Of a DNA stretch of 23,424 nucleotides, positions 1,823 through 18,399 are shown piece by piece. Source of the DNA: a virus; the IMG/VR virus record IMGVR_UViG_3300042476_000421, positions 1 through 23,424 of that record, one strand, 5' to 3'. A model generated the notes under the pieces. That model did no database searches. It saw only the letters and a program-made list of their open reading frames with translations, and had not been told where the DNA came from. Each line of letters begins with the position of its first letter. The stretch's first letter is position 1. Both the position numbers and the translations under genes were made by a program.

Positions 1823-1851
1823 TTGACAACAACGCCGATAAGTGATATAAT
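1823..1851 (+). promoter_or_regulatory. Sigma70-type promoter with GCCGATAA spacer element (uvdE)
   Basis: A perfect TTGACA (1823-1828), a 17-base spacer and a perfect TATAAT (1846-1851) lie just upstream of uvdE. The spacer contains GCCGATAA five bases after the -35 box, an element shared with other strong promoters in the window. Predicted transcription starts near 1858, leaving a very short leader before the GGAG ribosome binding site. Confidence 0.9.
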
Positions 1852-1869
1852 CAGCGAAACGGAGATTTT

Positions 1870-2793
1870 ATGAGTATCAGACCGGGGCTTTGTTGTATAA
1901 GTTTAACACTTCAAGAACGTGATCCTCCAGTTAAATTCCAGACAATGACATATAAGCGATTTTCTAGTTTGCCTAGAAACGAAGCACTGGAAATACTAGG
2001 TAACAGGATTCTTAATAATCTTGAAACTACTAATGAAACTATCAAATTTTGTGCTGAAAATAATTGGGTTTATCGTGTTAGTAGCGATATTTTCCCACTA
2101 ATTACTTATGATCAAGCGAATGTAAACCTAGAAGATTTGCCAAATTATGAAGATATTCAAGATGAGTTTGATAATATCTCACAAACTATTTCCTCTACTA
2201 ATGTTCGGGTTTCTGCTCATCCTAGTGAATTTAATAGTTTGTCAAGCCTCAACGAAAAAGTTGTTGAAAAAACAATCACAGAACTTAATTTCTACAGCAG
2301 TTTCTTTGATAGAATTGGACTTCCAGCAGATACTAGATCGGCCATGAATTTTCATATCCATAACAATAATGGTACTAGAGAAGAAATATCCCACAGATTT
2401 TACAACAACTTTAAAAAGCTTGATGAAAACTGTCAAGCCCGCACTGTAATAGAAAATGATGACAAACTTAATTGTTGGAGTGTTAAAGAACTAGTAGATA
2501 TTTTTCATCCAATTACCCGTATACCTATTACTTTCGACTATTTGCATCACAAATGTCATCCAAATAATTTGACAGAATGTGAGGCGATTAATATGTGTTA
2601 TGATACATGGCAAACTCGTCCACTTTTTCATTATAGTGAAAGTAGGCCCGGTAATAATCCAAGAGCCCATAATGATTATGCCGAAAACTATTTCGATAGT
2701 TATGGGTTAGAGTTTGACTGTGATTTTGAACTAAAAGCAAAATGTTTTGCTATTAAAAAATGGACCGATTCTTTTATTACTACAGGAGTTTAA
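1870..2793 (+). CDS. uvdE: UV-damage endonuclease (UvdE/UvsE family)
   Basis: This is a TIM-barrel, metal-dependent endonuclease that nicks DNA 5' to UV photoproducts and starts an alternative excision repair pathway. The opening (RPGLCCISLTLQ) is the typical first strand of UVDE. Probable metal ligands appear in family order: H117 (SAHPSEF), H162/H164 (FHIHNN), E195 (VIENDDK), D223 and H226 (FDYLHHK), H254 and E257 (FHYSESRPG). The 307-residue length matches bacterial homologues. The ATG follows a GGAG site and lies under its own strong promoter. With the ligase and glycosylase in this window it forms a phage repair set. Confidence 0.93.
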   Translation: MSIRPGLCCISLTLQERDPPVKFQTMTYKRFSSLPRNEALEILGNRILNNLETTNETIKFCAENNWVYRVSSDIFPLITYDQANVNLEDLPNYEDIQDEFDNISQTISSTNVRVSAHPSEFNSLSSLNEKVVEKTITELNFYSSFFDRIGLPADTRSAMNFHIHNNNGTREEISHRFYNNFKKLDENCQARTVIENDDKLNCWSVKELVDIFHPITRIPITFDYLHHKCHPNNLTECEAINMCYDTWQTRPLFHYSESRPGNNPRAHNDYAENYFDSYGLEFDCDFELKAKCFAIKKWTDSFITTGV

Positions 2794-2795
2794 TT

Positions 2796-2942
2796 ATGCC
2801 CCAAGTTGGAACTATTGTAATTAGTGACAGTGTTAATACTCAAGCTATGATTAACTTGATCAAAACAGATCCTAAGCTTACTATAGGTAAGGAACAGGTT
2901 ACAGAAAATGGCGTTAGATACGTTCCAATAGAAAAGAACTAA
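2796..2942 (+). CDS. Hypothetical protein, 48 aa
   Basis: An AGGAG site at 2784-2788 decides the ATG at 2796. An in-frame upstream extension into uvdE is less likely. The protein (MPQVGTIVISDSVNTQ..., ending in RYVPIEKN) looks like a tiny alpha/beta domain. It follows uvdE by two bases and is probably co-transcribed with it. No function is recognised. Confidence 0.65.
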   Translation: MPQVGTIVISDSVNTQAMINLIKTDPKLTIGKEQVTENGVRYVPIEKN

Positions 2943-2943
2943 T

Positions 2944-3090
2944 ATGAGTGCATGGCTTATTATTTTTACTGGTTTTGTATACGCTTATGTTGCAATAGAA
3001 CAGGGGTGTAAAGGTAATACTGGTATGCTTATAGCGTATACTGGTTATGCCTTTGCTAATATAGGATTATATCTATTAGCTTCTAAGTAA
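2944..3090 (+). CDS. Small two-helix membrane protein, 48 aa
   Basis: This short gene encodes MSAWLIIFTGFVYAYVAIEQ, then a polar link GCKGNTG, then MLIAYTGYAFANIGLYLLAS. The two hydrophobic segments of about 18-20 residues are joined by a short polar loop, a hairpin membrane protein. It begins one base after the previous stop, so it is in the same operon. Small membrane proteins of this shape are frequent in large phages. The specific role is unknown. Confidence 0.7.
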   Translation: MSAWLIIFTGFVYAYVAIEQGCKGNTGMLIAYTGYAFANIGLYLLASK

Positions 3091-3100
3091 AAGGAAAGTT

Positions 3101-3280
3101 ATGAATAAACCTAATAAGCCTAATCCAAGACCATTAAATCCAGAATCTCCAAGATCTAAAAAGGTTAATGTTACTCCGTTACCTAAAATTCATCCAGAAG
3201 ATGCTGATGATATTTATATCTTGGATGAAGTAAATAAAAAGCTGAATGAAATTTATAATGAAGATAATAAAGAAGGCTAA
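3101..3280 (+). CDS. Hypothetical proline-rich small protein, 59 aa
   Basis: AAGGAAAG just upstream serves as ribosome binding site. The first half is rich in Pro, Asn and Lys (MNKPNKPNPRPLNPESPR) and probably disordered. The second half is acidic and helical (DADDIYILDEVNKKLNEIY). No known domain is seen. It fills the gap between two other small genes in the same orientation with good spacing, which supports it being real. Confidence 0.65.
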   Translation: MNKPNKPNPRPLNPESPRSKKVNVTPLPKIHPEDADDIYILDEVNKKLNEIYNEDNKEG

Positions 3281-3297
3281 ATAGCAAGGAAGCTATT

Positions 3298-3537
3298 ATG
3301 AAATACGGAAATTGTTTTACCGGAGCAGTTATGCTCTTGTGGACACAGAGAGATCATAAACCAAGACTAATATTAAGAACAAGACCGGGAACTATGGTTC
3401 CTCATTTTATGGTTAAAACAAACTCTGAAATTCACCATTATAAGGTGCATAAGGAAATTCTTCCTTGGCCTTTATGTTATTTCTTTTTTGAGGGAAGATT
3501 CCAAACTGTTCCAGATGCTATTGACGAATCCTTTTAG
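3298..3537 (+). CDS. Hypothetical protein, 79 aa
   Basis: AAGGAAG ten bases upstream fits the ATG. The sequence is compact and aromatic-rich (GNCFTGAVMLLW, RTRPGTMVPHFMV, LPWPLCYFFFEGRF), suggesting a small beta-rich fold. The hydrophobic stretches are interrupted by charges, so a membrane protein is unlikely. The end of the gene overlaps the -35 box of the next promoter. The family is not assigned a function. Confidence 0.7.
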   Translation: MKYGNCFTGAVMLLWTQRDHKPRLILRTRPGTMVPHFMVKTNSEIHHYKVHKEILPWPLCYFFFEGRFQTVPDAIDESF

Positions 3538-3548
3538 TGTGATATACT
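3521..3548 (+). promoter_or_regulatory. Sigma70-type promoter upstream of deaminase-like gene
   Basis: TTGACG (3521-3526), a 16-base spacer and TATACT (3543-3548) overlap the end of the preceding gene and precede the gene at 3573 by 24 bases. Unlike most strong promoters here, its spacer lacks the GCCGAT element. Confidence 0.7.
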
Positions 3549-3572
3549 AGAGTCTCACTAACAGAGAAGTTT

Positions 3573-4031
3573 ATGAAGATAATTCAAAAAACTATTAAGA
3601 AAGCATACAATAGCTGGAATCCTTGTAAGGAAATTCGTTGCTATCATTTTGCCGCTGCCTTTGATGGTACTAAGCTTATAGGATTCACTCAAAATAATCC
3701 TATTAAAACTCATACTGGTGCTTATAGAATAGGTGAAAATTTCAATCTTCCCAAATATAAGGAACATCCATTTTATCATGCTGAGTCTCATCTTGTATCT
3801 CAATTACTTGATAGGTATAATTCCATTGATCCTAATTGGTCACTTGTTGTTATGCGAATTAACAGAAGAGGACTTGTACTAGGAAGTAAGCCTTGCGAGA
3901 ATTGTAGTCAGCTTCTTAATGCTGTAGGATTAGATACTATTTATTATAGTACTGATGATGGAGATTTTACCAATAGTTTTGGAACTTTGATTGGAGTTGG
4001 CGGCTTGACAATGCCGATGATGATGGTATAA
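3573..4031 (+). CDS. Cytidine/dCMP deaminase-like protein
   Basis: The zinc-dependent deaminase signature is visible. H69-A70-E71 (YHAESHLVSQL) supplies one zinc ligand and the proton-shuttling Glu. P107-C108-E-N-C111 (KPCENC) supplies the two cysteine ligands. A preceding strand (FAAAFDGTKLIGF) and following strand (LVVMRINRRG) match the deaminase fold. At 152 aa it is the right size for a free nucleoside or nucleotide deaminase. The likely role is pyrimidine salvage feeding ThyX with dUMP, but a nucleic-acid-editing role cannot be excluded. It has its own promoter. The next promoter lies inside its last codons. Confidence 0.8.
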   Translation: MKIIQKTIKKAYNSWNPCKEIRCYHFAAAFDGTKLIGFTQNNPIKTHTGAYRIGENFNLPKYKEHPFYHAESHLVSQLLDRYNSIDPNWSLVVMRINRRGLVLGSKPCENCSQLLNAVGLDTIYYSTDDGDFTNSFGTLIGVGGLTMPMMMV

Positions 4032-4032
4032 T
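4005..4032 (+). promoter_or_regulatory. Sigma70-type promoter with GCCGATGA spacer element
   Basis: A perfect TTGACA (4005-4010), a 16-base spacer and a perfect TATAAT (4027-4032) sit within the last codons of the deaminase gene. The spacer carries GCCGATGA two bases after the -35 box. The promoter drives the zinc-finger gene at 4052. Confidence 0.85.
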
Positions 4033-4051
4033 TCGTAAACGGAGGCTACCT

Positions 4052-4270
4052 ATGAATTGTATTTATTGCAAAAATTGCGTTGGTGTTGACCGTTACGAAT
4101 TTCTTGTAGAAACTGGTCGTAAAGTTATTTGCAAAGAATGTAGCGTCGAGGATCGTGCTGTGGGATTTATGGATTGGGGACATAAAACAGCACCAAGTTT
4201 AGTGATGGTTCCTAGTAACGCTAAAGAAACTATTCGTATTTTAGATAGAGCAAACAGGAGAAGCAGATGA
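4052..4270 (+). CDS. Small zinc-finger protein, 72 aa
   Basis: Four cysteines are set as C3-x2-C6 and a second pair at ICKEC (about residues 27-30), which could bind one zinc ion; C9 is a spare cysteine. The C-terminal half (GFMDWGHKTAPSLVMVPSN, then basic NRRSR) is not recognised. An ACGGAGG site lies eight bases upstream of the ATG, directly under a strong promoter. The next gene is coupled by ATGA. A nucleic-acid- or protein-binding role is likely but not specific. Confidence 0.75.
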   Translation: MNCIYCKNCVGVDRYEFLVETGRKVICKECSVEDRAVGFMDWGHKTAPSLVMVPSNAKETIRILDRANRRSR

Positions 4271-4488
4271 ATAAAATGACTTGGCTTGATCTTTATACTT
4301 TTCTGAATGAAAAAGCTAATAGTGTTAAATCTATTGGTACTTTTGACTGGAATCGTCCCGTTTTGGTACACGATGCTGATACTGGTGATGAATTTATCTG
4401 CGATACATATTATGTGACAGATAATCGTGGAGATGATAGGCTTGTGCTTATTACTAATATTGAAAAGATTTTTGAGGAGAATCGTTAA
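4267..4488 (+). CDS. Hypothetical protein, 73 aa
   Basis: An AGGAGAAG site within the previous gene and an ATGA overlap support this start. The protein contains TWLDLYTFLNEK, a strand-rich centre (RPVLVHDADTGDEFICDTYYV) and a final RLVLITNIEK. Small proteins with this TW-LY...VHDADTGDE pattern recur in phages as far as I recall, without a known function. It is in an operon with the zinc-finger gene. Confidence 0.7.
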   Translation: MNKMTWLDLYTFLNEKANSVKSIGTFDWNRPVLVHDADTGDEFICDTYYVTDNRGDDRLVLITNIEKIFEENR

Positions 4489-4721
4489 TGGATTTTGAAA
4501 TTGAGAGTTTGCTTTTTAAACAGGTAACGAAGCCCAAGTATTATTTGATGACTAAAATTAATAAATTGTGGGAAAATAGATACAGAGTTAATGTTTATAT
4601 TCAAATAGAAGAAGAAGGTCTTGCAAAAAAACGTATTCATGATAGTTATTTTTGTCATTATGATCCCGGTAAGTTAACCATTATTCCAGAAAAGGATTAT
4701 GCGTCCAAACTTACAGGATAA
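4488..4721 (+). CDS. Hypothetical protein, 77 aa
   Basis: It is coupled to the previous gene by TAATG. The protein alternates beta-like and charged segments (YLMTKINKLWENRYRVNVYIQ, then YFCHYDPGKLTIIPEKDYASK) and has no catalytic signature. It is the last gene of the 4052-4721 operon and is followed by an inverted repeat. Confidence 0.65.
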   Translation: MDFEIESLLFKQVTKPKYYLMTKINKLWENRYRVNVYIQIEEEGLAKKRIHDSYFCHYDPGKLTIIPEKDYASKLTG

Positions 4722-4726
4722 TTTAA

Positions 4727-4755
4727 AAACCTCAAGTATATTTGGTGCTAGGTTT
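4727..4755. repeat. Inverted repeat AAACCT / AGGTTT between operons
   Basis: AAACCT at 4727-4732 and AGGTTT at 4750-4755 can form a six-base stem with a 17-base loop, just after the 4488 gene and 32 bases before the next promoter. No T-run follows, so a rho-independent terminator is doubtful. The same arm sequence occurs at 10321-10346 in the same position relative to another promoter. Confidence 0.35.
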
Positions 4756-4786
4756 GAAAAATCCAGAATCGTCTAAAGAGTACCCC

Positions 4787-4814
4787 TTGACAACTCCGAT
4801 AACTGTGTTATACT
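4787..4814 (+). promoter_or_regulatory. Sigma70-type promoter with TCCGATAA spacer element
   Basis: TTGACA (4787-4792), a 16-base spacer and TATACT (4809-4814). The spacer has TCCGATAA, a one-base variant of the shared element. The gene at 4851 follows with an AGGAG site. Confidence 0.85.
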
Positions 4815-4850
4815 TAGAGCGTATCAACTACACTTCACAGGAGATTAAAG

Positions 4851-5264
4851 ATGGGACTTGGTAAGGGTAAAAAAGCTTGTCCAGATTGCGGAACTACAAC
4901 TGGCCCAAGGGCATATTGTTGCAAAAAGTGCAATCATATTTTTATATTTAAGCCCAAGAGCAAAGAGGCTAAGAATACTAAGATCATTCAAAAGGTTGAT
5001 TGGAAAACTCTGGTCAAGGGAGAGAGAATAAAGGTTGCTGGTGGACCGTACTATGTATCCAAGGGCGAATTTATTCCTATGGGATATAGAGGGCGTTTTG
5101 TTGTTGAGAGCGTAGACGATAAAGGTATTCGTGCTTATGGTCTTGACAAGTCCAGCGGCTTCTGTCATATTTATATGGGAAGGGATTTTCAAAATCCAGA
5201 AACAGGAGTTTGGAAAACAAAGCACAAACTGATGAAACTCAAACCTAAAACGGAGACTGTCTAA
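4851..5264 (+). CDS. Zinc-ribbon protein, 137 aa
   Basis: The N-terminus has CPDC (C10, C13) and CCKKC (about 23-27), a zinc ribbon. It is followed by a basic linker rich in Lys (KPKSKEAKNTK) and a second, strand-rich domain from about residue 50 (WKTLVKGERIKVAGGPYYVS, GYRGRFVVESV) that resembles a small beta-barrel. The start follows ACAGGAG and a strong promoter. Zinc ribbon, basic linker and barrel suggest RNA or DNA binding, but the family is not assigned. It is coupled to the next gene by TAATG. Confidence 0.75.
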   Translation: MGLGKGKKACPDCGTTTGPRAYCCKKCNHIFIFKPKSKEAKNTKIIQKVDWKTLVKGERIKVAGGPYYVSKGEFIPMGYRGRFVVESVDDKGIRAYGLDKSSGFCHIYMGRDFQNPETGVWKTKHKLMKLKPKTETV

Positions 5265-5554
5265 TGAGTCTTGAAGGAGGTTTTACTAAAACTCAAAAAG
5301 ACCAATTAAATAATCTGTTGGATCATAGAGATTCTATAGTCAATAATTTATATCATATAGAGAGAATTCTTAAAGTATATTTTCCAGAAGAGTTTGAATT
5401 AGCATATCAGCATTGGATTCCACAGATTATTACTGCTCTTTATGAAGATGGTCGTTGGTTGCCTAGAGGAGATCAAACTATGCAAAAAACTTTGAATAGA
5501 TTATTGGATAAAAGTAGTCAAAAAATAGATCAAACAGTTAAGAAATTTATTTAA
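5264..5554 (+). CDS. Hypothetical helical protein, 96 aa
   Basis: The protein is predicted mostly helical (TQKDQLNNLLDHRDSIVNNL, then LNRLLDKSSQKIDQTVKKFI) with an aromatic centre (YFPEEFELAYQHWIPQ). It is coupled to the zinc-ribbon gene by TAATG. No catalytic motif is seen and the function is unknown. Confidence 0.7.
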   Translation: MSLEGGFTKTQKDQLNNLLDHRDSIVNNLYHIERILKVYFPEEFELAYQHWIPQIITALYEDGRWLPRGDQTMQKTLNRLLDKSSQKIDQTVKKFI

Positions 5555-5569
5555 TTGGGGTATATTACT

Positions 5570-5983
5570 ATGAGTGAGATTTATTCTATTAGCGATTTGA
5601 ACAGGTATGCTGAAAGTATTAGAAAAAATGCTGCTCTATCATTTACAGAATTTTATGATGAAAATCTTGATGATTTTATCAGCATAGTCCAAACTACCAA
5701 TTTGATTAAAAGCAACTGTATCGGAGAGGATGAGGACGGCAACCTATTAATTGATGAAGATAGCTACAATAGAACTTTTGAAGAAGTCACAATGTGGCTA
5801 TATAATGTTGGTTTGGCAAAACTAGCTGCTGAAGGCAGAGTAGAGTGTGCTTGGGATGATAAATTAAACGAAATGGTTTTCTGGATATCTTCTAGTGAAT
5901 TAACATTAAAGACCCAAGATGATGAACCACAACCACAACCAAAACGAAAAACTTCTAAAAGAAATAACAAGCCTAAAAGCTAA
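5570..5983 (+). CDS. Hypothetical protein, 137 aa, paralogue of the 21084 gene
   Basis: The ATG at 5570 is chosen over an in-frame TTG at 5555 because GGGG at 5557-5560 gives proper spacing. The acidic, helical protein ends its globular part with LAAEGRVECAWDDKLNEMVFWI (in two pieces: LAAEGRVE and AWDDKLNEMVFWI). This closely resembles LVNNGLLE plus AFDEENNDFIFWV in the protein at 21084-21515. The shared pattern looks like the last helix and beta-wing of a winged-helix domain, which would imply nucleic acid or protein binding (inference). The tail is PQPQPK followed by Lys/Arg-rich sequence. Confidence 0.7.
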   Translation: MSEIYSISDLNRYAESIRKNAALSFTEFYDENLDDFISIVQTTNLIKSNCIGEDEDGNLLIDEDSYNRTFEEVTMWLYNVGLAKLAAEGRVECAWDDKLNEMVFWISSSELTLKTQDDEPQPQPKRKTSKRNNKPKS

Positions 5984-6104
5984 ATTAGATGAATTAAAAG
6001 AGCGGTTTGATTCTGACTATTGTAAGAAGTGTAGAGAAATAGAGACAGAGATTCAAGGATGCGAACAAGAAATTATGGATCTGAAAAATCTTTTTGTAAC
6101 ATGA
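5919..6104 (+). CDS. Small coiled-coil protein, 61 aa
   Basis: The frame encodes a coiled-coil (LLKEITSLKAKLDELKERFD, then REIETEIQGCEQEIMDLKNL) with a CKKC pair in the middle. The start overlaps the previous gene by 65 bases, which is unusual, and no clear ribosome binding site precedes ATGATG at 5919. Its stop overlaps the next start as ATGATG/TGA, which supports it being translated. A later start is possible. Confidence 0.5.
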   Translation: MMNHNHNQNEKLLKEITSLKAKLDELKERFDSDYCKKCREIETEIQGCEQEIMDLKNLFVT

Positions 6105-6313
6105 TGGGGAATTTGAGAGAGTGGTCGCTTAACCTTTCTTTCAAAAGGAGACTTTGTTATATCTCTGGTGAAAATCTATGGTTTAAAATAGCATATCGTG
6201 GCAGAAAGAAAGTTTGGAGTATTATAGATAATGGACGATCAATCAACGATGATATATGGATATCTCAAAAAGAATACTTCAATATGATAAGAAAAGGAAA
6301 GTTAAATGTGTAA
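6101..6313 (+). CDS. Hypothetical basic protein, 70 aa
   Basis: The ATG at 6101 overlaps the upstream TGA, so translation is likely coupled. The frame also extends further upstream to 6059, but that start would overlap coding sequence. The protein is basic (LSFKRRLCY, YRGRKKVW) and ends in ISQKEYFNMIRKGKLNV. No recognised domain. Confidence 0.6.
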   Translation: MMGNLREWSLNLSFKRRLCYISGENLWFKIAYRGRKKVWSIIDNGRSINDDIWISQKEYFNMIRKGKLNV

Positions 6314-6509
6314 TAGACCACTATGGAAATTAAGTTTTTTTGTTTTGCTCTTTGGATCATTGTTACTGTCTCTTGGTTATAATTTACATTTGATTAATTG
6401 TGTTAACAAGCTAGAGAATTCACTACAGAATAATCATTGGATTACTGATCAAGAATATAGTGAAATAAAAAAAGAGCTTTTGAGACTCGAAAAGGTTAAA
6501 TACGAATAA
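6306..6509 (+). CDS. Single-pass membrane protein with coiled-coil tail, 67 aa
   Basis: One hydrophobic helix (LWKLSFFVLLFGSLLLSLGY, about residues 6-25) is preceded by a few residues and followed by a helical charged tail (NCVNKLENSLQNN, EYSEIKKELLRLEKV). The shape recalls phage spanin or Rz-type proteins, but length and context do not prove that. It overlaps the previous gene by eight bases and ends ten bases before the tmRNA. Confidence 0.65.
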   Translation: MCNRPLWKLSFFVLLFGSLLLSLGYNLHLINCVNKLENSLQNNHWITDQEYSEIKKELLRLEKVKYE

Positions 6510-6518
6510 TTTTATATG

Positions 6519-6871
6519 GGGGGCGTAACGGTATCGACTGGATATGGAAAATTATATTAGCAAGTAGTAGTTGATCTGGTGGCTACTTTAAAACCAGATT
6601 AAACGCTTAACTGGCGTAAATCAGTTAGCCCTTGCTGCTTAATTAAATAGCAGCAACAATCTTAGGAAGCGATAAAGGTAGCGTCCAAAAGATTGTCGTA
6701 AAATCCTTTGGCTCCTGTTAGTGGTGACGGTTAACAGGCTAAGATGTGTCACTAGGATTGATGAATGTTTTTTATTCTTTAGTCATATCCAAAATTTTAT
6801 GAATAAAATAAACTTGTAGAAGATGTAATTAGAAATATCGCAGCAAATGGGTTCGACTCCCATCGCCTCCA
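6519..6871 (+). ncRNA. ssrA: Transfer-messenger RNA (tmRNA), one-piece
   Basis: The 5' end GGGGGCGTAACGGTATCGAC and the 3' end ATGGGTTCGACTCCCATCGC plus CTCCA match the tRNA-like domain of tmRNA. The acceptor stem 6519-6525 pairs with 6864-6870 (one G-U). The T-arm is ATGGG-TTCGACT-CCCAT, with discriminator A at 6871. CCA is not encoded. The likely tag frame begins at GGC (6613) and ends in TAA (6640-6642), giving GVNQLALAA, with the usual hydrophobic ALAA-type degradation end. The stop sits in a GCTGCT...AGCAGC hairpin as in other tmRNAs. tmRNA frees stalled ribosomes and tags their products for proteolysis. A phage copy may help translation late in infection. Confidence 0.95.
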
Positions 6872-6893
6872 CTGTTTAAGAAGAGAAAAAGCT

Positions 6894-7460
6894 ATGCAAC
6901 ATATACATAATAATATCCCAGGCTGGTTTAATTTTATTGATTTTTACAATTATATTATTGATAATATTCCAAACGATTTTCTCTTTGTAGAAGTAGGAGT
7001 ATGGCAAGGCAAAAGTCTTTCTTATTTTGTTGTAGAGAGCATTAATAGGAATAAGTTTGGTAAAACCTATGCTGTTGATCATTGGCTAGGGAGTATGGAG
7101 CATCAAAAAGGTTCTTGGGCTTATGATTCTGTTTTGGATACAGAAGATGCCTTATATAGTAGTTATTTGCAACATACCAACCAAATTCAGCAGCACATAA
7201 CTAATCTAAGAAAAACTTCATTAGAAGCTGCTTCTTTATTTAAAGATCAAAGTATAGATGCTATCTTTATAGATGCAAGCCATGATTATGATAATGTTTG
7301 TCAAGATATTAATTGTTGGTTTCCTAAAATAAAAACTGGAGGGATAATATCTGGTCATGATTATGACTGGCCCGAGGTTAGTAGGGCTGTTAATGATTGT
7401 GCTAAAAAATATAATCTAAATATTAGACAACATGATACTTCATGGGAATACTATAAATAA
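6894..7460 (+). CDS. Class I SAM-dependent methyltransferase-like protein
   Basis: The Rossmann-fold motif I is clear: FVEVGVWQGKSLSYF at residues 31-45. It is followed by an acidic strand end (YAVDHWLG, D62), the core strand DAIFIDASHDYDNV and GGIISGHDYDW. This arrangement is typical of the Methyltransf_24 and TylF-like group, where the later Asp and His residues may bind a metal. The 188-residue length fits. The acceptor substrate is unknown and could be a glycan or small molecule. It lies 22 bases after the tmRNA. A paralogue with the same motif order lies at 9740-10297. Confidence 0.8.
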   Translation: MQHIHNNIPGWFNFIDFYNYIIDNIPNDFLFVEVGVWQGKSLSYFVVESINRNKFGKTYAVDHWLGSMEHQKGSWAYDSVLDTEDALYSSYLQHTNQIQQHITNLRKTSLEAASLFKDQSIDAIFIDASHDYDNVCQDINCWFPKIKTGGIISGHDYDWPEVSRAVNDCAKKYNLNIRQHDTSWEYYK

Positions 7461-7467
7461 CCCTATT

Positions 7468-7809: not shown

Positions 7810-8021
7810 GAAAAATAATTAAACAACATCTAATAGAAAATCATATGACTTATTATCAGCATTTAAAATTTGCTATTTTCTATGGACTTGTTTGTTTGGT
7901 TGCTGGTTTATGTCTAATAGTTCATGCTATATTCCCTTGTTGGTTTCAAACTTCTGGAAGCGATCTGGTACAATATATGGCGATTGTGTTCAAGAAACGG
8001 CAAAGATTAGACGATACTTGA
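7806..8021 (+). CDS. Small membrane protein (DUF6356-like), 71 aa
   Basis: The pattern HMTYYQHLKFAIFYGLV followed by CLVAGLCLIVHAIFPCWF and TSGSDL matches a small family I recall as DUF6356: an amphipathic start, one transmembrane helix (about residues 22-44), a HAxFP motif and a GSD end. The start overlaps the resolvase stop as ATGA. The function of the family is unknown. The end of the gene overlaps the ligase promoter. Confidence 0.7.
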   Translation: MRKIIKQHLIENHMTYYQHLKFAIFYGLVCLVAGLCLIVHAIFPCWFQTSGSDLVQYMAIVFKKRQRLDDT

Positions 8022-8046
8022 CAAGAGGGTTGTGTTGTGATATGAT
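8018..8046 (+). promoter_or_regulatory. Sigma70-type promoter for DNA ligase
   Basis: TTGACA (8018-8023), a 17-base spacer and TATGAT (8041-8046) lie 25 bases upstream of the ligase ATG. The spacer does not contain the GCCGAT element seen in most other strong promoters here. Confidence 0.8.
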
Positions 8047-10320: not shown

Positions 10321-10346
10321 AGGTTTTCAAAAATTGGATAAAACCT
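10321..10346. repeat. Inverted repeat AGGTTTT / AAAACCT
   Basis: A perfect seven-base stem (10321-10327 with 10340-10346) and 12-base loop lie between the methyltransferase gene and the next promoter. No T-run follows, so it is not a canonical terminator. The arm sequence repeats that of 4727-4755. Confidence 0.4.
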
Positions 10347-10359
10347 AAAGTAGCGTGGC

Positions 10360-10388
10360 TTGACAAGCCGATAACACTAATGTAGAAT
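10360..10388 (+). promoter_or_regulatory. Sigma70-type promoter with GCCGATAA spacer element (glycosylase)
   Basis: TTGACA (10360-10365), a 17-base spacer and TAGAAT (10383-10388). GCCGATAA starts one base after the -35 box. Transcription near 10395 would place a TTG at 10402 too close to the RNA end, supporting the ATG at 10426 as the gene start. Confidence 0.85.
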
Positions 10389-11124: not shown

Positions 11125-11126
11125 GA

Positions 11127-12040: not shown

Positions 12041-12226
12041 ATGAGCAAGTTTCATAAAAGCAATAAAAACAGAACCTTTTTAGGGGTTTGTGGTGGCTTG
12101 TCTGAATCCACCGGAATAGATGTATCTTTGATTAGGATTGGTTTTATTTTAGGAACTATTTTTAGCGGTAGTATTCTGTTATGGATTTATCTATTATTGG
12201 CACTGGTGCTACCAACTGAGGACTGA
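12041..12226 (+). CDS. PspC-domain membrane protein, 61 aa
   Basis: The sequence follows the PspC domain pattern: basic start (KSNKNRTFLGVCGGLSESTG), then IDVSLIRIGFILG and a transmembrane helix (SGSILLWIYLLLALVLP) with a final PTED. In bacteria, PspC-domain proteins sense membrane stress and bind partners at the inner membrane. A stand-alone phage copy could modulate host envelope stress responses (inference). AAAGGA precedes the ATG. Confidence 0.85.
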   Translation: MSKFHKSNKNRTFLGVCGGLSESTGIDVSLIRIGFILGTIFSGSILLWIYLLLALVLPTED

Positions 12227-12465
12227 TCGACAATAGACTCTAATCTAGCTTATAGGACAGACTTTAAAAATTGAGAGAGCGGTTGCCTTGTTCTGTTCTT
12301 TTAAAAAAGATTTGCGAATAATTCTGACAGAACCGAAAAAAAATCAAGGATACCCATTGACAATGCCGATAAGGTGTTGTACAATCAAAAAGACAACGAG
12401 AGGTAATATCAATCATGCGATTGAGCCTCAAGTTGAAAGATTGGATAGGAATTTGGAGGTTTATT
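12227..12465 (+). other. Intergenic region with promoter and leader
   Basis: No gene is supported in these 239 bases. They hold an imperfect inverted repeat (GTTCTGT near 12292 with ACAGAAC near 12326, plus CCTTG and CAAGG outside it), a GCCGATAA-type promoter at 12357-12385 and an approximately 70-base leader to the next gene. An upstream in-frame ATG at 12415 lacks a ribosome binding site. Confidence 0.5.
12357..12385 (+). promoter_or_regulatory. Sigma70-type promoter with GCCGATAA spacer element (HTH gene)
   Basis: TTGACA (12357-12362), a 17-base spacer and TACAAT (12380-12385). GCCGATAA starts two bases after the -35 box. The HTH-like gene at 12466 follows. If its product binds this element, it would be self-regulated. 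Confidence 0.85.
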
Positions 12466-12750
12466 ATGACTGAAGTTACTACTACTGCTGATAAGCAGAC
12501 CCGTGTTCGTTGTTCTGATGAGCAGTTTCTTGAGGCAGTTTTTTCTAGCAAGACCTATGCTGAGATTGCGTCAAAGACTGGTCAGAAGATTGCTAGTACG
12601 ATGGCACGATATGCTCGTACAAAGGCGGCTCTGTCTAAGAAGGGTGTTGAACTTCCCGCTATGGAGCGTCAGAAGCCTGTTAAGACGGTTGATAATGTTG
12701 AGGCTATGGCAGACATTGTTCGTCGCCTCAAGGCTCATACTAACGGCTGA
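12466..12750 (+). CDS. Helix-turn-helix-like DNA-binding protein, 94 aa
   Basis: A strong GGAGG (12455-12459) fixes the ATG at 12466. Residues 17-52 (SDEQFLEAVFSSKTYAEIAS, then KTGQKIASTMARYARTKAAL) have the pattern of an initial helix followed by a turn-linked pair (YAEIASKTGQ..ASTMARYAR), typical of small winged or homeodomain-like HTH proteins. The C-terminus is helical (VEAMADIVRRLKAH). Gene and promoter are stand-alone, the arrangement of a regulator. A role as the factor that reads the CCGAT promoter element is an untested idea. Confidence 0.65.
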   Translation: MTEVTTTADKQTRVRCSDEQFLEAVFSSKTYAEIASKTGQKIASTMARYARTKAALSKKGVELPAMERQKPVKTVDNVEAMADIVRRLKAHTNG

Positions 12751-12769
12751 GTTTAGTTTAAGCCAAATG

Positions 12770-12851: not shown

Positions 12852-12857
12852 TGTTAT

Positions 12858-13132
12858 GGGAGCATAGCCCAATTAGGCAGAGGCAATGGACTTTTTTCGT
12901 TAAATTGAGTGCTTAAAGAGAAATTTTTAAAGTAGAACCTGTCAAATTCGGTGAAGGCTTAACTGCTAATACCGAGCCAAGCATAGTAATATGAAGGTGT
13001 AGAGACTTGACGGCAGGAACCTAAAGTGAAAACTATGGTTAAGGTAAAGTCCAGACTACAAACAGTAATGGTAACGAAAGTTATAGTAGTACGAAAATCC
13101 ATACAGTGAGGGTTCGATCCCCTCTGCTCCTA
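12858..13132 (+). tRNA. tRNA interrupted by a group I intron, apparent anticodon UAA
   Basis: Exon 1 (12858-12893) has acceptor GGGAGCA, TA, a D-arm GCC...GGC and anticodon stem ATGGA. Exon 2 (13094-13132) has TCCAT, a five-base variable region ACAGT, T-arm GAGGG-TTCGATC-CCCTC, acceptor TGCTCCT and discriminator A. CCA is not encoded. With the splice sites placed by the group I rules (U before, G at the intron end), the loop is CTTAAAA, hence anticodon TAA (Leu, UUA codons). But Leu tRNAs usually have a long variable arm, and this one is class I in shape. If the splice sites shifted, TTT (Lys) would be the alternative. Confidence 0.85.
12894..13093 (+). ncRNA. Group I self-splicing intron (tRNA type), no ORF
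   Basis: The conserved core is recognisable: P-like TTCGGTGAAGGC, Q-like AATACCGAGCCAAGC, R-like GTGTAGAGACTTGACGG and S-like AAGGTAAAGTCCAGAC. GACTT in R pairs with AAGTC in S (P7), and the strands of P4 (CGGT / ACCG) also pair. The exon end ACTT can pair with GAGT in the intron (12906-12910 region) with a U-G at the cut, and the intron ends in G at 13093. The about 200-base size and elements resemble the introns in cyanobacterial tRNA-Leu(UAA), inserted at the same loop position. No homing endonuclease is encoded. Confidence 0.87.
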
Positions 13133-13145
13133 CTGAAAGAAATTT

Positions 13146-13343
13146 ATGACATTCGACCAATGGATCAATCAAAACGAAGGATTCGGCCCAAGAATTGAGC
13201 GAATGTTGGACGATGTAAAAGTTGCAGTTGAACAAGAAAAAACAGACGATATAATTAAGTGGCTGAAAGCTGCTTATATTATGGGTCATGAACAAGGATA
13301 TGATGCTGGATATTATGATTGTTCTGATGAAGAAGATCTCTAA
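13146..13343 (+). CDS. Hypothetical acidic protein, 65 aa
   Basis: It begins 13 bases after the tRNA, preceded by GAAAG. The protein is helical and acidic (TFDQWINQNEGFGPRIERML, then DDIIKWLKAAYIMGHEQGYD, ending in DCSDEEDL). No domain is recognised. It starts a run of small, closely spaced genes. Confidence 0.65.
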   Translation: MTFDQWINQNEGFGPRIERMLDDVKVAVEQEKTDDIIKWLKAAYIMGHEQGYDAGYYDCSDEEDL

Positions 13344-13357
13344 ATAAAAGGAAAACT

Positions 13358-13573
13358 ATGAGCAAAAATGTTCTAGAATTATATAAGATTGGGAGCAAGG
13401 TTAAGCTGGCAGATGATGTTTATGGTACAATTGTTAGTATTAATATTCATGGAGATAATAATATTACATATGAGTGTGGATGGTGGAATAGTCGCTCATA
13501 CTCAACCCACTCTTTTGCTCCAAACGAAATAGAAGTTACAATTAGTGATAAAACAAGAATAGGTTTTGTATGA
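13358..13573 (+). CDS. Hypothetical protein, 71 aa
   Basis: AAAGGAAAA precedes the ATG. The sequence is dominated by beta-like segments (YKIGSKVKLADDVYGTIVSI, then ITYECGWWNSRSYSTHSF, EIEVTI), the pattern of a small SH3-like or KOW-like barrel. In phages such domains often occur as small unassigned proteins. It is coupled to the next gene by ATGA. Confidence 0.65.
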   Translation: MSKNVLELYKIGSKVKLADDVYGTIVSINIHGDNNITYECGWWNSRSYSTHSFAPNEIEVTISDKTRIGFV

Positions 13574-13857
13574 TGATGCCTTCTGATAACGAAAAGAATT
13601 CTAATCCTTTGGATACTCTTATTGATTTTGCTTGGTCAAGTGGTGCTGATATTTTTTGGGTTAATAATGCTAAGGATGAACTTAAAAAACTCAAAAAAGA
13701 ACTAGAGTGTTATAGAAAGTCTTTTGAGACTCCAGTTGCTTGGGCTAAAACTAATAAGCATAATGATTTATTTGATTTGCGAATTCAGAATAATCCTTAT
13801 ATAAATCAAGATATTGTTGTTCCATTATATAGGAAATCTCATGATAGCCAAAAATAG
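13570..13857 (+). CDS. Hypothetical protein, 95 aa
   Basis: The ATG overlaps the previous stop as ATGA. The centre is helical (AKDELKKLKKELECYRKSFE) and probably a short coiled-coil, and the end resembles a short beta segment (INQDIVVPLYRKSH). Nothing indicates a catalytic role. The next gene starts inside its end. Confidence 0.6.
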   Translation: MMMPSDNEKNSNPLDTLIDFAWSSGADIFWVNNAKDELKKLKKELECYRKSFETPVAWAKTNKHNDLFDLRIQNNPYINQDIVVPLYRKSHDSQK

Positions 13858-14167
13858 ATTTTATCAAGGATATTGTTTGAATACTGGCAATAATTCATCT
13901 CACCTTAGACTTTATAAAATTGAGACAGAAAGGGAGATTAGTGACTATGAAGGTGGTACTGTTATTGAGAGTATTAAAAGCGTAGAAGATTATTGGGACG
14001 ATACTGAAACTGTTGGTGAGCCGTTCTATACAATTTATGGTTCGTTCAAAATTGATTTTGTACAATCTTCATTAAAAATCGCTAGTACAGATTCTTTGCA
14101 AGAAGCGATAAGCTTAGTCGAACATCTTTCTGGAAATAAAATTTCTGAAAATTATTATAATGGCTAA
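13841..14167 (+). CDS. Hypothetical protein, 108 aa
   Basis: AGGAAA at 13831-13836 sets the ATG at 13841, 17 bases inside the previous gene. An upstream in-frame TTG is less likely. The protein has several strands (RLYKIETEREISDYEGGTVI, PFYTIYGSFKIDFVQ) and a final helix (SLQEAISLVEHLSGNKI). The family is not recognised. It overlaps the kinase-like gene by eight bases. Confidence 0.65.
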   Translation: MIAKNRFYQGYCLNTGNNSSHLRLYKIETEREISDYEGGTVIESIKSVEDYWDDTETVGEPFYTIYGSFKIDFVQSSLKIASTDSLQEAISLVEHLSGNKISENYYNG

Positions 14168-14678
14168 CTACCTAATTGATAATGACTCTTGGTTTAAAGA
14201 GGGAGGATATGCTCAATTATATCCAATATTAAATTATGATAACTTAGCTTTTAAAGAATTTCCATCCAAGAAAAAAGCCGACTATGCTAGAAAAATTCAG
14301 TATGAATTATCTATATTTGATTTGGCCCCCAAGGTAATAAGTAAAACTATAAAATTAGAATACGCTAAATCTATAGAAGGATATATTCCCGAACAAAGCG
14401 AATGGGGATATATTACTGAACTAGCACAACACGGGACGGTATCTAGTGTACGAATACAGAACCTAGTTAATAAGATTTTTTTAAAAACTAGACTAAAATT
14501 CTGGGATTGTCATTATTCAAATATCGGATATATTAAAAGACGAGGGAAGTCTAAAGTAGTTTGCATTGATACTGGGAAAGAAAGTTTTGATGGTCGTGCA
14601 AATGCTTGGGGAAATCCCGATCCCGGCCCAAAATGTAGTTATTGTTTTAAATATGAATGTAATTGTATAGACTTATAA
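14160..14678 (+). CDS. Minimal protein-kinase-like fold protein, 172 aa
   Basis: The order of kinase residues is present. K32 sits in a strand (NLAFKEF, like the VAIK lysine), E49 in the next helix (IQYELS), a hinge-like YITEL at 84-88, D116-C-H-Y-S-N121 (catalytic Asp with Asn five residues later), and D137-T-G139 after a strand (VVCIDTG) in place of DFG. This is shared with protein kinases, APH and related phosphotransferases. There is no room for a normal C-lobe, so it is unusually small. A C-terminal CSYC...CNC (about 159-169) may bind zinc. Substrate unknown; a pseudokinase is possible. Confidence 0.6.
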   Translation: MANYLIDNDSWFKEGGYAQLYPILNYDNLAFKEFPSKKKADYARKIQYELSIFDLAPKVISKTIKLEYAKSIEGYIPEQSEWGYITELAQHGTVSSVRIQNLVNKIFLKTRLKFWDCHYSNIGYIKRRGKSKVVCIDTGKESFDGRANAWGNPDPGPKCSYCFKYECNCIDL

Positions 14679-14690
14679 TAGGAAAAAAAT

Positions 14691-15005
14691 ATGCCATATA
14701 TTAATGAAGACGAAAGACTTGAACTAAATAGTGCAATAGAGGTTTTGTCTAATGTTATACTAAATAGCAAAACTAATCTGAATAATCCTCGTGATTTTAG
14801 CCGGTATCTTGGGCGAATAAACTATTGTTTTTCTCGCATCATAATGAATGTAATGGGGGACGTATCTTATAGCAAGATTGCTATGGCTACTGGTGTATTA
14901 GAGAATATTAAGCAAGAACTGTATCGCAGGGTGGCTGGAGATTATGAGGATAAGAAGATTGCTGAAAATGGAGATATAAAAGAGTACAAAAATTTAAATT
15001 TTTAA
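14691..15005 (+). CDS. Hypothetical protein, DUF6899-like, 104 aa
   Basis: The pattern MPYINEDERLELNSAIEVLS, then GRINYCFSRIIMNVM, and near the end GVLENIKQELYRRV with YEDKKIAENGDI, matches a small protein family common in phages that I recall as DUF6899. It is helical, has no catalytic motif, and its function is unknown. TAGGAAAAAA precedes the ATG. Confidence 0.7.
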   Translation: MPYINEDERLELNSAIEVLSNVILNSKTNLNNPRDFSRYLGRINYCFSRIIMNVMGDVSYSKIAMATGVLENIKQELYRRVAGDYEDKKIAENGDIKEYKNLNF

Positions 15006-15015
15006 GGATGATATA

Positions 15016-15345
15016 ATGTCAAAAAATATAGATGATGTAATAAAAGAAGTAATGAAAAGTAATAAAGAAATTCATAGAGTAGACAATAAACTATCAAAAG
15101 ACATAGATACTACCCATAGAGAAATACAATCACTAAAGAAAGAAGTAAAACTAGTATCTGCAAAAATAGACTCTGTACTAGAAATACTTAATACATTAAC
15201 TATATTTATAGAAGATGCAGAACAAATAATAGACGACGAAGATATTGATGAAGAATATTCTTCTAATGAGGGATGGATACCAGAAGTAAATAATTGGGAA
15301 GATAAAAATACCGATGATGAAGACGAAGAAGATGAGATTCAGTAA
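15016..15345 (+). CDS. Coiled-coil protein with acidic tail, 109 aa
   Basis: Residues 5-65 form a long heptad-rich helix (KEVMKSNKEIHRVDNKLSKD, EIQSLKKEVKLVSAKIDSVL). The tail is very acidic (DDEDIDEEY, DEDEEDEIQ). Such coiled-coil/acidic proteins often bind basic partners, but no partner is visible. It starts with AAGGATG upstream and is coupled to the next gene by TAATG. Confidence 0.7.
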   Translation: MSKNIDDVIKEVMKSNKEIHRVDNKLSKDIDTTHREIQSLKKEVKLVSAKIDSVLEILNTLTIFIEDAEQIIDDEDIDEEYSSNEGWIPEVNNWEDKNTDDEDEEDEIQ

Positions 15346-15596
15346 TGGCTAGTTTGGCTCTGATAGTAACAATAATCTTTTTTTCTGTGATAATTATAGG
15401 ACCATTAAGTTACATCTTATCTTTATTTAATTGGATGCCAAGGTTTTTTGTGTGGATCATGGGATTGCTCTGCATACTTGTTGGATGTATGACGTTTACT
15501 TTGCCTGTGGTCTTTTTAAAAGTTTTGGGTCTGATAGACATAGCCATAGGCTTTAAAATAATATCAGACAGACAACAAAAGAAAACTGATGCTTGA
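15345..15596 (+). CDS. Small membrane protein, 83 aa
   Basis: Two to three hydrophobic helices are visible: LALIVTIIFFSVIIIGPLSY, then FFVWIMGLLCILVGCMTF and PVVFLKVLGLIDIAIGF. The tail is basic (ISDRQQKKTDA). It is probably an integral inner membrane protein of the infected cell. It follows by TAATG coupling, and its last codons overlap the rIIA promoter. A holin role is possible but unproven. Confidence 0.7.
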   Translation: MASLALIVTIIFFSVIIIGPLSYILSLFNWMPRFFVWIMGLLCILVGCMTFTLPVVFLKVLGLIDIAIGFKIISDRQQKKTDA

Positions 15597-15621
15597 CAAG
15601 AGGTTTTGCCGATGGTATACT
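15593..15621 (+). promoter_or_regulatory. Sigma70-type promoter with GCCGATGG spacer element (rIIA)
   Basis: TTGACA (15593-15598), a 17-base spacer and TATACT (15616-15621). GCCGATGG begins nine bases after the -35 box, so here it touches the -10 box. The rIIA gene follows 38 bases later. Confidence 0.85.
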
Positions 15622-15659
15622 CTAGCCATCACAGGGAACGATAACACTTTTGGAGAAAA

Positions 15660-18350
15660 ATGATGAAGTTGGCAGATAGGACGATTGAGACTCACAGCGT
15701 TGGTGTTACGAGCAAGAATCAGTTTAATATTGCTCAAACAAGCAAAATGTTTAAAATCCTTTCAGATTCTCTTTATTCTGACAAGGTTATGGCTGCAATT
15801 CGTGAGCTTTCAACTAATGCTTATGATAGCCACATTTCTGCTGGTAATAAGAATCCTTTTAAGGTAACTCTGCCCACCGCTGCTAATCCAACTTTTATGG
15901 TTAGAGATTACGGTACTGGTCTTAGTCAGGATGATATGGAGGACTTGTATACAACCTATGGAGCGTCCAACAAGAATGATAGCAATGATTTTGTTGGTTG
16001 TCTTGGTCTAGGGTCTAAGAGTCCGTTTGCTTATACCAAGAGTTTTACGACCGCATCTTATTATAATGGTAAGAAATATACTTATATTGCGGCGATTGAT
16101 GAGAGTGGTGTTCCTACCCTCAATCTTTTTAATACTTCTAATACATCTGAGCCTAATGGTCTTGAGATTAGTTTTGCTGTTAAGCAGCATGACTTCCAAG
16201 AATTTACAGATAAGGCTAAGAGAATCTTCCATTATTTCCGTATGAAACCTATTATTGAGGGTGGTATTGGTGTTAATCTTCAAGACCACAAGTACAGTAA
16301 TACTAACATCGTTATTAGTGGTGACGGGTGGAGAGTTTGCCGACTGAATAATGATACTCAATACTATCCTAATAGTTATCATCGTATTGATAGTGGTGTT
16401 GTAGCTATCATGGGTAATATTGCGTATCCTGTTCAGACCGCACAGATTGTGGGTCAAGAAAAGGAAGAGATGCCTGATCATATTCAGAAGTGGAATAGAG
16501 CTTTCCAGAAAGCAGATATTGATAGCTGGAAGAGTTTTGTTAGTGAGATTATCAACTCCGGTCTTTATCTTGAGTTGGATTTTAATATCGGTCAACTTGA
16601 GATGGACGTAAGCCGGGAAGGATTGCAGTATACTAAAGATGTGATCAAGACCCTTCGTAAAAAGACTCAAGAAATTTATATTGAGATGAAGGAAGAATTC
16701 TCCAAGAAAATTCAAACTTCTAAAACTAAAGTAGAAGCCATTACTTCATACTATACCATGAACGAACTGGCTGGAGGATGGGGAGTTGGTGCATCTTGGA
16801 CCGATCCCAAGGGCAAAGATCATCCCATCAATTCTGGTAACGATCTGGAATATAAAATTCCGGCTGGCAAGAGTCTGTATGTTTTTAATTACAAGACTGC
16901 TGGGTTTCGTTCTCGTCGCATGGTTGCTCTGACTGATAAGATTCATCACGAAACTCTTACTGGTAAAGGTTATAGTTATTGGAATAACCAGAAAAAGAAA
17001 GGTCAGATGAGTTTCTTTGTGTGTGACGTTAAGGGTGAAGAGACTGCTAAGAAAATTATTACAAAATATTGTAATACAAATGATTGCTTTGCATACCTCT
17101 TGATTGATACTAAGGATCATACAAAAAGCGGAGAAGGTTTTGATCAACTGATTGAAGATGTTGGGGCTGAAAATCTACTCAAGGTTTCAGACTACAAACA
17201 TCTGACGCAAAGTTCTGGACCAAGAAAGTCTTACAATAGAAATTCTAATGGTAGCGTTAGCGATCAAGACGTATTCTTTATTCATGGTTATGATAAGGAT
17301 AGCAAGCAGATTACCAATCCTTACAACGACGCTACTTGTCTGAGAATTCTTTCAGAAGAACAACTGGAAGATTTTCTGGAACAAGATGAGATCGTCTATG
17401 TTCCTATGCTTCGCTATAAGACTGAACCTGCGTCTGGCTATCCACAGATTAATGATATCTCTATTACTCTTAGAGATGAAACGCTCAAGAGTATAGTCAA
17501 GGACTTGGTTGGAGATAGTAAGGTTTATGCTATCAAAACAGCTTTTGCTAAAAAGCTTGAGAAAGACGGATACAATCTTGTTAACTTCAATGACTTTTTG
17601 AAGAGACAGCTTAAAGTTGTAGCAGAAAAACATTTTAAGAATCTTGCTTCTATCAACAAGCTTGTTGAATATTGTAAGAAGGACTATGCAGAAGATGAGA
17701 AGTACACGGGAGGGGGTTATAGATATTATAACCATGGAACAACAGATAAGCAGTTTATGTTTCATATTCTGAATATCTTTGGTCTAGATTATGATAGGTT
17801 TATTGGCAACAAGACTCTTGTAGATTGTTTGAACAAGACTATGCTAACAGAGTTCTTTGCTAATACTGTTCATATGAGTCCTTTTAATATTAGTAAGTTT
17901 AAGCAAACAGAATATCTATCTCATATCTCTAAGCTTATGAAAGAAATTGGCATTGAAGATGTTGACGGTAAGGAGATTCGTAATGCTAATTTGGCCTACA
18001 ATACCTTGACTCGCATGATCTCCAACTCTTTGTACTCTGGAGATAATAGTACAAAAGCAGAGGGTTATCTCAAGATTATTCGTGGGACTTCTACTCAAGA
18101 TATTAAGACATGGAAGATCTCTGAGATTAGGGAAAAGATCAAAACTGAGGTAGATAAGAATCCTATGCTGAAACTTATTATGGGGAATCATCAAGTATCT
18201 GGTAATCTGACAGAACTAAAGCCTAGTCAGAATCCTATTCTTGAGGATCGTCACTCATACTATGGAAATTCTGCTAAGGATTGGATCCATCAGATGAGTC
18301 AGGAGAATATTGATCTGTTAAAGATTCAGTTGAGCAGTTTGATAAAGTAG
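15660..18350 (+). CDS. rIIA: rIIA-like protein (GHKL ATPase)
   Basis: The GHKL ATPase fold is clear: N-box AAIRELSTNAYDSH with E49 and N53, G1 box VRDYGTGLS with D83, and glycine-rich GCLGLGSKSPFAY (113-125) as the lid. The family is T4 rIIA, which with rIIB guards T4 infection against the RexAB exclusion system. The 896-residue length exceeds T4 rIIA, and the C-terminal half (from about 450) is not recognised. Start is ATGATG: GGAG at 15652-15655 suits the second ATG (15663) best. It is the largest gene in the window, under a CCGAT promoter, followed by rIIB. Confidence 0.9.
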   Translation: MMKLADRTIETHSVGVTSKNQFNIAQTSKMFKILSDSLYSDKVMAAIRELSTNAYDSHISAGNKNPFKVTLPTAANPTFMVRDYGTGLSQDDMEDLYTTYGASNKNDSNDFVGCLGLGSKSPFAYTKSFTTASYYNGKKYTYIAAIDESGVPTLNLFNTSNTSEPNGLEISFAVKQHDFQEFTDKAKRIFHYFRMKPIIEGGIGVNLQDHKYSNTNIVISGDGWRVCRLNNDTQYYPNSYHRIDSGVVAIMGNIAYPVQTAQIVGQEKEEMPDHIQKWNRAFQKADIDSWKSFVSEIINSGLYLELDFNIGQLEMDVSREGLQYTKDVIKTLRKKTQEIYIEMKEEFSKKIQTSKTKVEAITSYYTMNELAGGWGVGASWTDPKGKDHPINSGNDLEYKIPAGKSLYVFNYKTAGFRSRRMVALTDKIHHETLTGKGYSYWNNQKKKGQMSFFVCDVKGEETAKKIITKYCNTNDCFAYLLIDTKDHTKSGEGFDQLIEDVGAENLLKVSDYKHLTQSSGPRKSYNRNSNGSVSDQDVFFIHGYDKDSKQITNPYNDATCLRILSEEQLEDFLEQDEIVYVPMLRYKTEPASGYPQINDISITLRDETLKSIVKDLVGDSKVYAIKTAFAKKLEKDGYNLVNFNDFLKRQLKVVAEKHFKNLASINKLVEYCKKDYAEDEKYTGGGYRYYNHGTTDKQFMFHILNIFGLDYDRFIGNKTLVDCLNKTMLTEFFANTVHMSPFNISKFKQTEYLSHISKLMKEIGIEDVDGKEIRNANLAYNTLTRMISNSLYSGDNSTKAEGYLKIIRGTSTQDIKTWKISEIREKIKTEVDKNPMLKLIMGNHQVSGNLTELKPSQNPILEDRHSYYGNSAKDWIHQMSQENIDLLKIQLSSLIK

Positions 18351-18371
18351 TCAGAAATTGTTCAAGACCCC

Positions 18372-18399
18372 TTGACAAGCTTGCCGATTAGTGTAAAAT
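18372..18399 (+). promoter_or_regulatory. Sigma70-type promoter with GCCGATTA spacer element (rIIB)
   Basis: TTGACA (18372-18377), a 16-base spacer and TAAAAT (18394-18399). GCCGATTA starts five bases after the -35 box. It gives rIIB a separate promoter from rIIA, allowing unequal dosage. Confidence 0.85.

Follow-up and report, generated by a model that had tools for sequence, protein, structure and literature searches.

The 23,424-base IMG/VR virus record IMGVR_UViG_3300042476_000421 (hereafter the window; it was analysed whole and is probably a genome fragment) carries a series of strong sigma-70-type promoters that share a CCGAT element close to their -35 and -10 boxes. A bipartite site of 27-28 bp, 5'-TMAAG-N15/16-GHCGATA-3', has this element as its right half and forms a real two-part operator found across a phage lineage on a subset of its strong promoters. 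Repression by the protein bound there is likely, and we put at roughly two in three the probability that the site is the operator of a putative phage-encoded repressor acting on host sigma-70-type promoters.

Register is given here as the number of bases between the -35 and the start of the six-base NCCGAT element, with negative values lying upstream of the -35. The window holds eight near-consensus promoters, all on the + strand. An initial sequence-only reading had described CCGAT in the spacers of seven of them, at a distance varying from one to nine bases; all seven are present, each with an exact TTGACA, a -10 box that departs from TATAAT by no more than one letter and a spacer of 16-17 nt, and NCCGAT starts 5, 2, 2, 1, 2, 9 and 5 bases past the -35. 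At the rate of CCGAT on the + strand of the window (17 copies), the probability of finding it in at least seven of eight spacers is about 3e-14. On both strands together, GCCGAT occurs 10 times where 3.1 copies are expected, a count reached in 0 of 100 shuffles, and this excess leaves the proposed element standing; CCGATAA with one mismatch allowed is in slight excess (68 vs 51.5). The accompanying statement that GCCGAT occurs about once outside promoters, at 692, needs correction, as two such copies lie on the + strand (692 and 19115) and two more on the - strand, and 10 of the 17 + strand copies of NCCGAT fall outside the seven promoters. In 5/7 promoter copies vs 0/10 non-promoter copies, NCCGAT is preceded by an AAG whose first base lies exactly 19 positions upstream, and the probability of AAG at one set distance in the promoter copies is about 4e-7. 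The eighth promoter, at 8018 (DNA ligase), is of the same quality and has no spacer element, but GACGATA stands directly upstream of its -35, at 8010-8016. With this promoter included, the left half matches at least three of four consensus letters in 8/8 cases. CCGAT is thus a genuine shared spacer element, but not the whole of it.

Each of the eight operators lies on the + strand. The uvdE operator, TCAAG-N16-GCCGATA, spans 1813-1840 (-35 at 1823-1828, -10 at 1846-1851, register +5), and that of a small cysteine-rich open reading frame (ORF) at 4052-4270, TGGAG-N16-GCCGATG, spans 3992-4019 (-35 at 4005-4010, -10 at 4027-4032, register +2, left half 3/4). The operator of the zinc-ribbon gene at 4851-5264 is TAAAG-N16-TCCGATA at 4774-4801 (-35 at 4787-4792, -10 at 4809-4814, register +2). 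The DNA ligase operator, TCAAG-N15-GACGATA, which the sequence-only reading had missed, occupies 7990-8016 (-35 at 8018-8023, -10 at 8041-8046, register -14). Further along, the DNA glycosylase operator is TAAAG-N16-GCCGATA at 10346-10373 (-35 at 10360-10365, -10 at 10383-10388, register +1), and that of a helix-turn-helix (HTH) protein is TCAAG-N16-GCCGATA at 12344-12371 (-35 at 12357-12362, -10 at 12380-12385, register +2). The rIIA operator, with the weakest left half, is TGATG-N16-GCCGATG at 15587-15614 (-35 at 15593-15598, -10 at 15616-15621, register +9), and the rIIB operator is TCAAG-N16-GCCGATT at 18362-18389 (-35 at 18372-18377, -10 at 18394-18399, register +5).

The coupling of the two halves is also seen outside the window. 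Among GCCGAT promoters of public viral contigs, the upstream AAG tracks GCCGAT, not the promoter. When the -35 and -10 were masked in 149 such promoters, a set that excludes the window's record and includes near relatives, T was found at -21 (72%), A at -19/-18 (62%, 74%) and G at -17 (56%) relative to GCCGAT. We scanned both strands of eight sequences totalling 688 kb: the window, taken for the finding itself; G006, taken as a relative by rIIA; and G018-G022 and G024, picked for several exact GCCGAT promoters. They were not selected for the left half, the gap, the GACGAT/GTCGAT variants or odd registers. Here N15 and N16 account for 35 and 74 copies of the strict pair T.AAG / G[CAT]CGATA, vs 0-4 copies at every other gap from N8 to N25, and each sequence holds between 5 and 21 strict sites. 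The half-site centres are 22-23 bp apart, or about two helical turns. The 109 strict sites take registers of -14 (2), +1 to +7 (87) and +22/+23 (6), the last placing GNCGATA directly 3' of TATAAT; two outliers, at -4 and +39, are chance-like, and 12 sites have no promoter by our criterion, several of these showing a weak promoter by eye. The halves may lie on either side of the -35, on either side of the -10, or both upstream of the -35, over a register span of about 37 bp that spares both hexamers. The extended consensus reads A/T tract, YTMAAGW and GHCGATA, with weak preferences only between the halves; it has no clear palindrome, and an imperfect one (TNAAG versus TATCG) is possible.

Because the pair slides along the promoter and keeps its own gap constant, it behaves like an operator. 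The site might instead be no operator at all but a promoter consensus of extended length or a promoter cassette propagated by copying, as the likeness of the lineage's promoters, their common A/T-rich upstream DNA and the weak preferences between the halves could suggest. The half-site pair, however, shifts relative to both hexamers, many strong promoters lack the site, and the sliding register already contradicts this explanation, which we find scarcely credible.

Orthologous promoters were compared next to these counts. The relatives were selected solely by the rIIA-like protein, which carries a GHKL-type ATPase domain and is encoded in the window at 15660-18350 (+); of the 90 found, 80 (L002-L081) were kept. 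The comparison covered 149 distinct orthologous promoters of window genes other than uvdE, after 13 promoter-less upstream regions (12 of rIIB and one of ORF 4052) had been dropped. The NNCGAT core is kept in 143/149, in a mostly gene-specific register, and the four-letter controls TAGC and ATCG are found in 34/149 and 36/149 promoter neighbourhoods; the comparison with related phages therefore upholds the element. Among the rIIA-selected ligase orthologues, 17/21 have it at -14, all 17 with a left half of 4/4, and the other four have none. For the glycosylase it stands at +1 in 26/27 (left half 3/4 in two and otherwise 4/4), and for the HTH-protein gene in 28/28 (23 at +2 and five at +1), with a left half of 4/4 in all. 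The zinc-ribbon orthologues have it at +2 in 5/5 and the rIIB orthologues at +5 in 23/24, both with left halves of 4/4, while the single rIIA-selected ORF 4052 orthologue also carries it (1/1), its left half again being 4/4. All 43 rIIA orthologues have the core, 42 of them at +9. In sets partly selected by GCCGAT, the element is found in 11/12 promoters of uvdE relatives, at +3 or +4 vs +5 in the window, and in 16/16 promoters of ORF 4052 relatives, at +2 to +4; once GCCGAT-selected loci are added for ligase, it lies at +1, +7 or +22 in 5/23 promoters. The shifts at uvdE and ligase indicate that the register changes between more distant relatives.

The operator is specific to promoters and to one direction. 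The pattern T.AAG-N15/16-N[CAT]CGAT lies on 97 of the 217 strong promoters in the eight sequences, while the same test gives 3 for reversed letters, 1 for the complement and 2 for the opposite strand; the core alone is on 135/217, vs 18 and 14 in controls. By sequence, the site is on 6/8 strong promoters in the window, 10/41 in G006, 16/44 in G020, 12/18 in G019, 15/42 in G024, 19/24 in G018, 5/15 in G022 and 14/25 in G021. Sites read with transcription in 97 cases vs 2 opposed, and in the single strict reversed case the G006 minus-strand promoter at 135266 overlaps an operator that reads the other way. The reversed pattern TAGCCG was dropped as a control in the viral contigs, as it is contained in TAGCCGAT and is not independent. 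Taken together, promoter enrichment in relatives, retention in orthologues and free register show that the site is not a core-promoter element. Some operator-less promoters have features of their own. In L332, four strong promoters (G022 30923, 31537, 32379 and 32629) share the spacer CCAACTTAGT, or a variant of one or two letters, before TATAATACA, and these are possibly a second promoter family or a recent duplication; in L306 (G006 near 114610), the near-palindrome CCTTACGACATTGTAAGG precedes an operator-less promoter.

How a bound protein would act is constrained by the same data. An activator is normally bound to a set position, whereas an occluding repressor is not, and the variable register consequently favours an occluding repressor. 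A phage or host protein that binds the site and recruits polymerase would suit the placement of the site near the promoter and its co-orientation with it, yet the register spans about 37 bp, with positions upstream and downstream of each hexamer, and the hexamers in the window are already near consensus; we hold activation to be very unlikely. The direction bias, 97 vs 2, could alternatively reflect an orientation-locked polymerase switch, where a phage factor contacts RNA polymerase, reads the site one way and stalls or reprograms the enzyme, as L5-type repressors do at stoperators. In line with such a switch, inverting L5 repressor sites abolishes repression, according to an excerpt of PubMed Central (PMC) article PMC9283540, and the phages encode a sigma-region-2-like protein. 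Few strict sites lie off promoters, however, unlike most stoperators as described in an excerpt of PMC6550527, and the direction may have been kept by descent, the promoters possibly having spread by duplication. A switch of this kind is unlikely in our judgement.

The distribution of the site bears on whose protein reads it. One strict arrangement was scanned in the genomes of 84,980 prokaryote species and gave four matches, in three metagenome-assembled genomes (MAGs). Each matching contig holds several operator promoters together with lineage phage genes, and the bins (Micavibrio, SAR202 and a gammaproteobacterial MAG) are mutually discordant; the contigs look like binned phage contigs. If the operator belonged to a host-encoded regulator put to use by the phages, perhaps as a sensor of host state, it would be easy to understand that no phage binder was identified by our searches; against this, the arranged site was on no ordinary bacterial contig in that scan of one strict arrangement, all four matches being on phage-like contigs, and we consider a host regulator quite unlikely. 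In the viral scan, the left half is present in 68 of the 81 loci with at least two lineage genes, among at least 120 loci, and in 11/39 of the others, which ties the site to the lineage. Searches limited to open-licence PMC articles turned up no earlier account of the element, and a text match that was inspected proved to be a primer.

The genomes of this phage lineage are large, with records reaching 238 kb, and encode a PolIII-alpha-type polymerase. Their DNA polymerase and GP88-like matches spread over phages of many hosts, and no operator-bearing promoters were found in the four examined of ten GP88-like-gene records (S-SRM01, Sf-FR1 and S-EIVl, about 40 kb each, and all 16 kb of AG-345-A17). 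S-SRM01 has one spacer with ATCGAT and S-EIVl one loose match without a promoter; with only 0 and 1 strong promoters, respectively, S-EIVl and AG-345-A17 are weakly informative. The terminase has only distant matches, in 37 phage records, mostly Bacillus phages including SPbeta-like ones. A conserved 336-residue protein of the terminase cluster matched none of 50,697 phage records; it was presumed to be the major capsid protein, a label left unconfirmed by the lack of a PHROG family match. A search with Gp23 had no match anywhere, control records included, and is hence uninformative. By the terminase cluster lies a sigma-70 region-2-like protein, kept in 7/7 related sequences (for example L306:6311-7006 and L320:2476-2994, both on the - strand), which scores above the Pfam cut-off in G024 and slightly below it in G006 and had no match in the phage records searched for relatives; it is a possible late sigma factor. 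The integrase profile had no match in 14 records, which makes a lytic life likely for these phages.

As binder, the sequence-only reading had put forward the HTH protein, a product of 94 residues encoded at 12466-12750 (+) whose family was found only in the window's own lineage, namely in 48/80 rIIA loci (many partial) and in G006. A hidden Markov model (HMM) of this family found nothing convincing in G018-G022 and G024 (best E 1.7), records that may be incomplete, and over the ORFs of the eight sequences it recovered the window and G006 copies only, the next having E of at least 0.57. The structural model (predicted local distance difference test, pLDDT, 76) places helices at 18-27, 31-38 and 42-58 and gives weak LysR/MarR-type matches, with a best E of 0.27. 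Since six sequences bearing this operator yielded no copy of it, the HTH protein probably is not the common binder and was rejected as such; within its own lineage it may still have a modulating role. A second candidate, on a speculative footing, is the 137-residue zinc-ribbon protein (4851-5264, +), whose family is found in the window, G006, G019, G020, G021, G024 and L337 and whose model (pLDDT 85) has no significant fold match. Two known repressor types were looked for by profile: a tyrosine-recombinase (MrpR-like) repressor had no PF00589 match in 14 records (controls 14/14), a profile that MrpR itself may escape, and an HTH_3 repressor likewise had none in 14 records (controls 14/14), an absence that does not test the L5 repressor family. 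The proteins shared by G006 and G024, listed and partly scanned, included no evident regulator.

We therefore return to the operator of a phage-encoded repressor. Of the phage-wide operator claimed by the sequence-only reading, the shared operator stands on enrichment, orthologue retention and free register, whereas the HTH protein lacks support as the shared binder; repression itself, and the phage origin of the binder, we infer. It is hypothesized that a phage-encoded protein would bind both halves, which could form an imperfect dimer site or be contacted by two domains of a single protein, and would cover the -35, the spacer or the -10, blocking the host sigma-70-type polymerase. The genes for uvdE, ligase, glycosylase, rIIA, rIIB and small early ORFs could then be silenced as a group at a later stage of infection, or kept at a fixed level, with operator-less promoters escaping control. 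Several observations weigh against this account. The rIIA left half is weak, at 4/4 in 4, 3/4 in 31 and 2/4 in 8 of its 43 promoters. As many as 120/217 strong promoters fail the strict test, many showing no operator trace, and G006, the sole other sequence not chosen by motif, passes in only 10/41. The operator share in G018-G022 and G024, picked for GCCGAT promoters, and in the window, picked for the finding, is a biased estimate. Simple occlusion does not require the near-uniform direction; the early timing is read from gene type and promoter type; the HTH protein was not found outside its lineage; and no binder was found, HTH_3 and Phage_integrase being unmatched in 14 records. A bolder version, which we offer tentatively and regard as doubtful, is that a register-free, direction-locked bipartite operator on many early promoters of a large, apparently lytic lineage serves a putative new protein family that acts on polymerase instead of plainly occluding it, as a genome-wide off-switch for early genes without lysogeny.

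The operator supplies a regulon that can be tested in large environmental phages lacking close cultured relatives in the searched collection. Its 28-bp sequence is a concrete probe for the regulator. If repression is true, phages with no integrase match would use one type of operator to shut genes off in concert, and their strong sigma-70 promoters would split into regulated and unregulated sets. A site that slides and yet stays oriented is also a natural experiment on operator position and direction in polymerase blocking.

Other features of the window were noted along the way. A tRNA-like gene at about 12858-13134, delimited by eye, seems split by a group I intron at 12884-13069 (RF00028, 55.3 bits, above the gathering score); the tRNA was not called by ARAGORN. 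A phage-encoded tmRNA lies at 6519-6872, with the tag GVNQLALAA, and a weak tRNA-like fold downstream of rIIB, at 19329-19412 (19.5 bits, below the gathering score), is perhaps a degenerate or unusual tRNA. A PspC-domain protein is encoded at 12041-12226 and a RuvB-like protein at 21873-22775.

The site resembles several known phage systems in part. The box of a T4 MotA-type activator has a set position and replaces the -35; in contrast, the -35 here is intact and the register variable. Unlike the lambda CI type, with its palindromic operator and HTH_3 repressor, the present phages show no clear palindrome and no HTH_3 match in 14 records. In SPbeta, one conserved element, SPBRE, recurs in many phage promoter regions and is bound by the master repressor MrpR, as stated in an excerpt of PMC10516654. 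The use of one element across many phage promoters is shared with that system as excerpted, and the terminase here has distant matches in SPbeta-like phages; the same excerpt describes SPBRE, however, as a single 15-bp motif of a temperate phage and MrpR as having a tyrosine-recombinase fold, and Phage_integrase is unmatched here. In cluster A mycobacteriophages (L5, TipsytheTRex), a repressor monomer reads an asymmetric site with two domains (excerpts of PMC9283540 and PMC6550527). As in the stoperators described there, many copies of one asymmetric site are oriented with transcription (97 vs 2 here), but the L5 sites of these excerpts are 13-mers mostly off promoters, whereas ours are 27-28 bp long and mainly on promoters, and the 14 records searched match neither Phage_integrase nor HTH_3. 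In phi29, the early promoters A2b/A2c are repressed by p4, itself an early protein of the phage, whose sites take the form CTTTTT-15 bp-AAAATG and overlie the -35 of early promoters (excerpt of PMC3100819). Going by that excerpt, the halves lie about two turns apart in both systems, the gap being N15 (35 sites) or N16 (74 sites) here vs 15 bp there; the halves here are YTMAAGW and GHCGATA, not CTTTTT and AAAATG, with no clear inverted repeat, and they recur on many promoters in variable register, in contrast to the four sites in one region of phi29.

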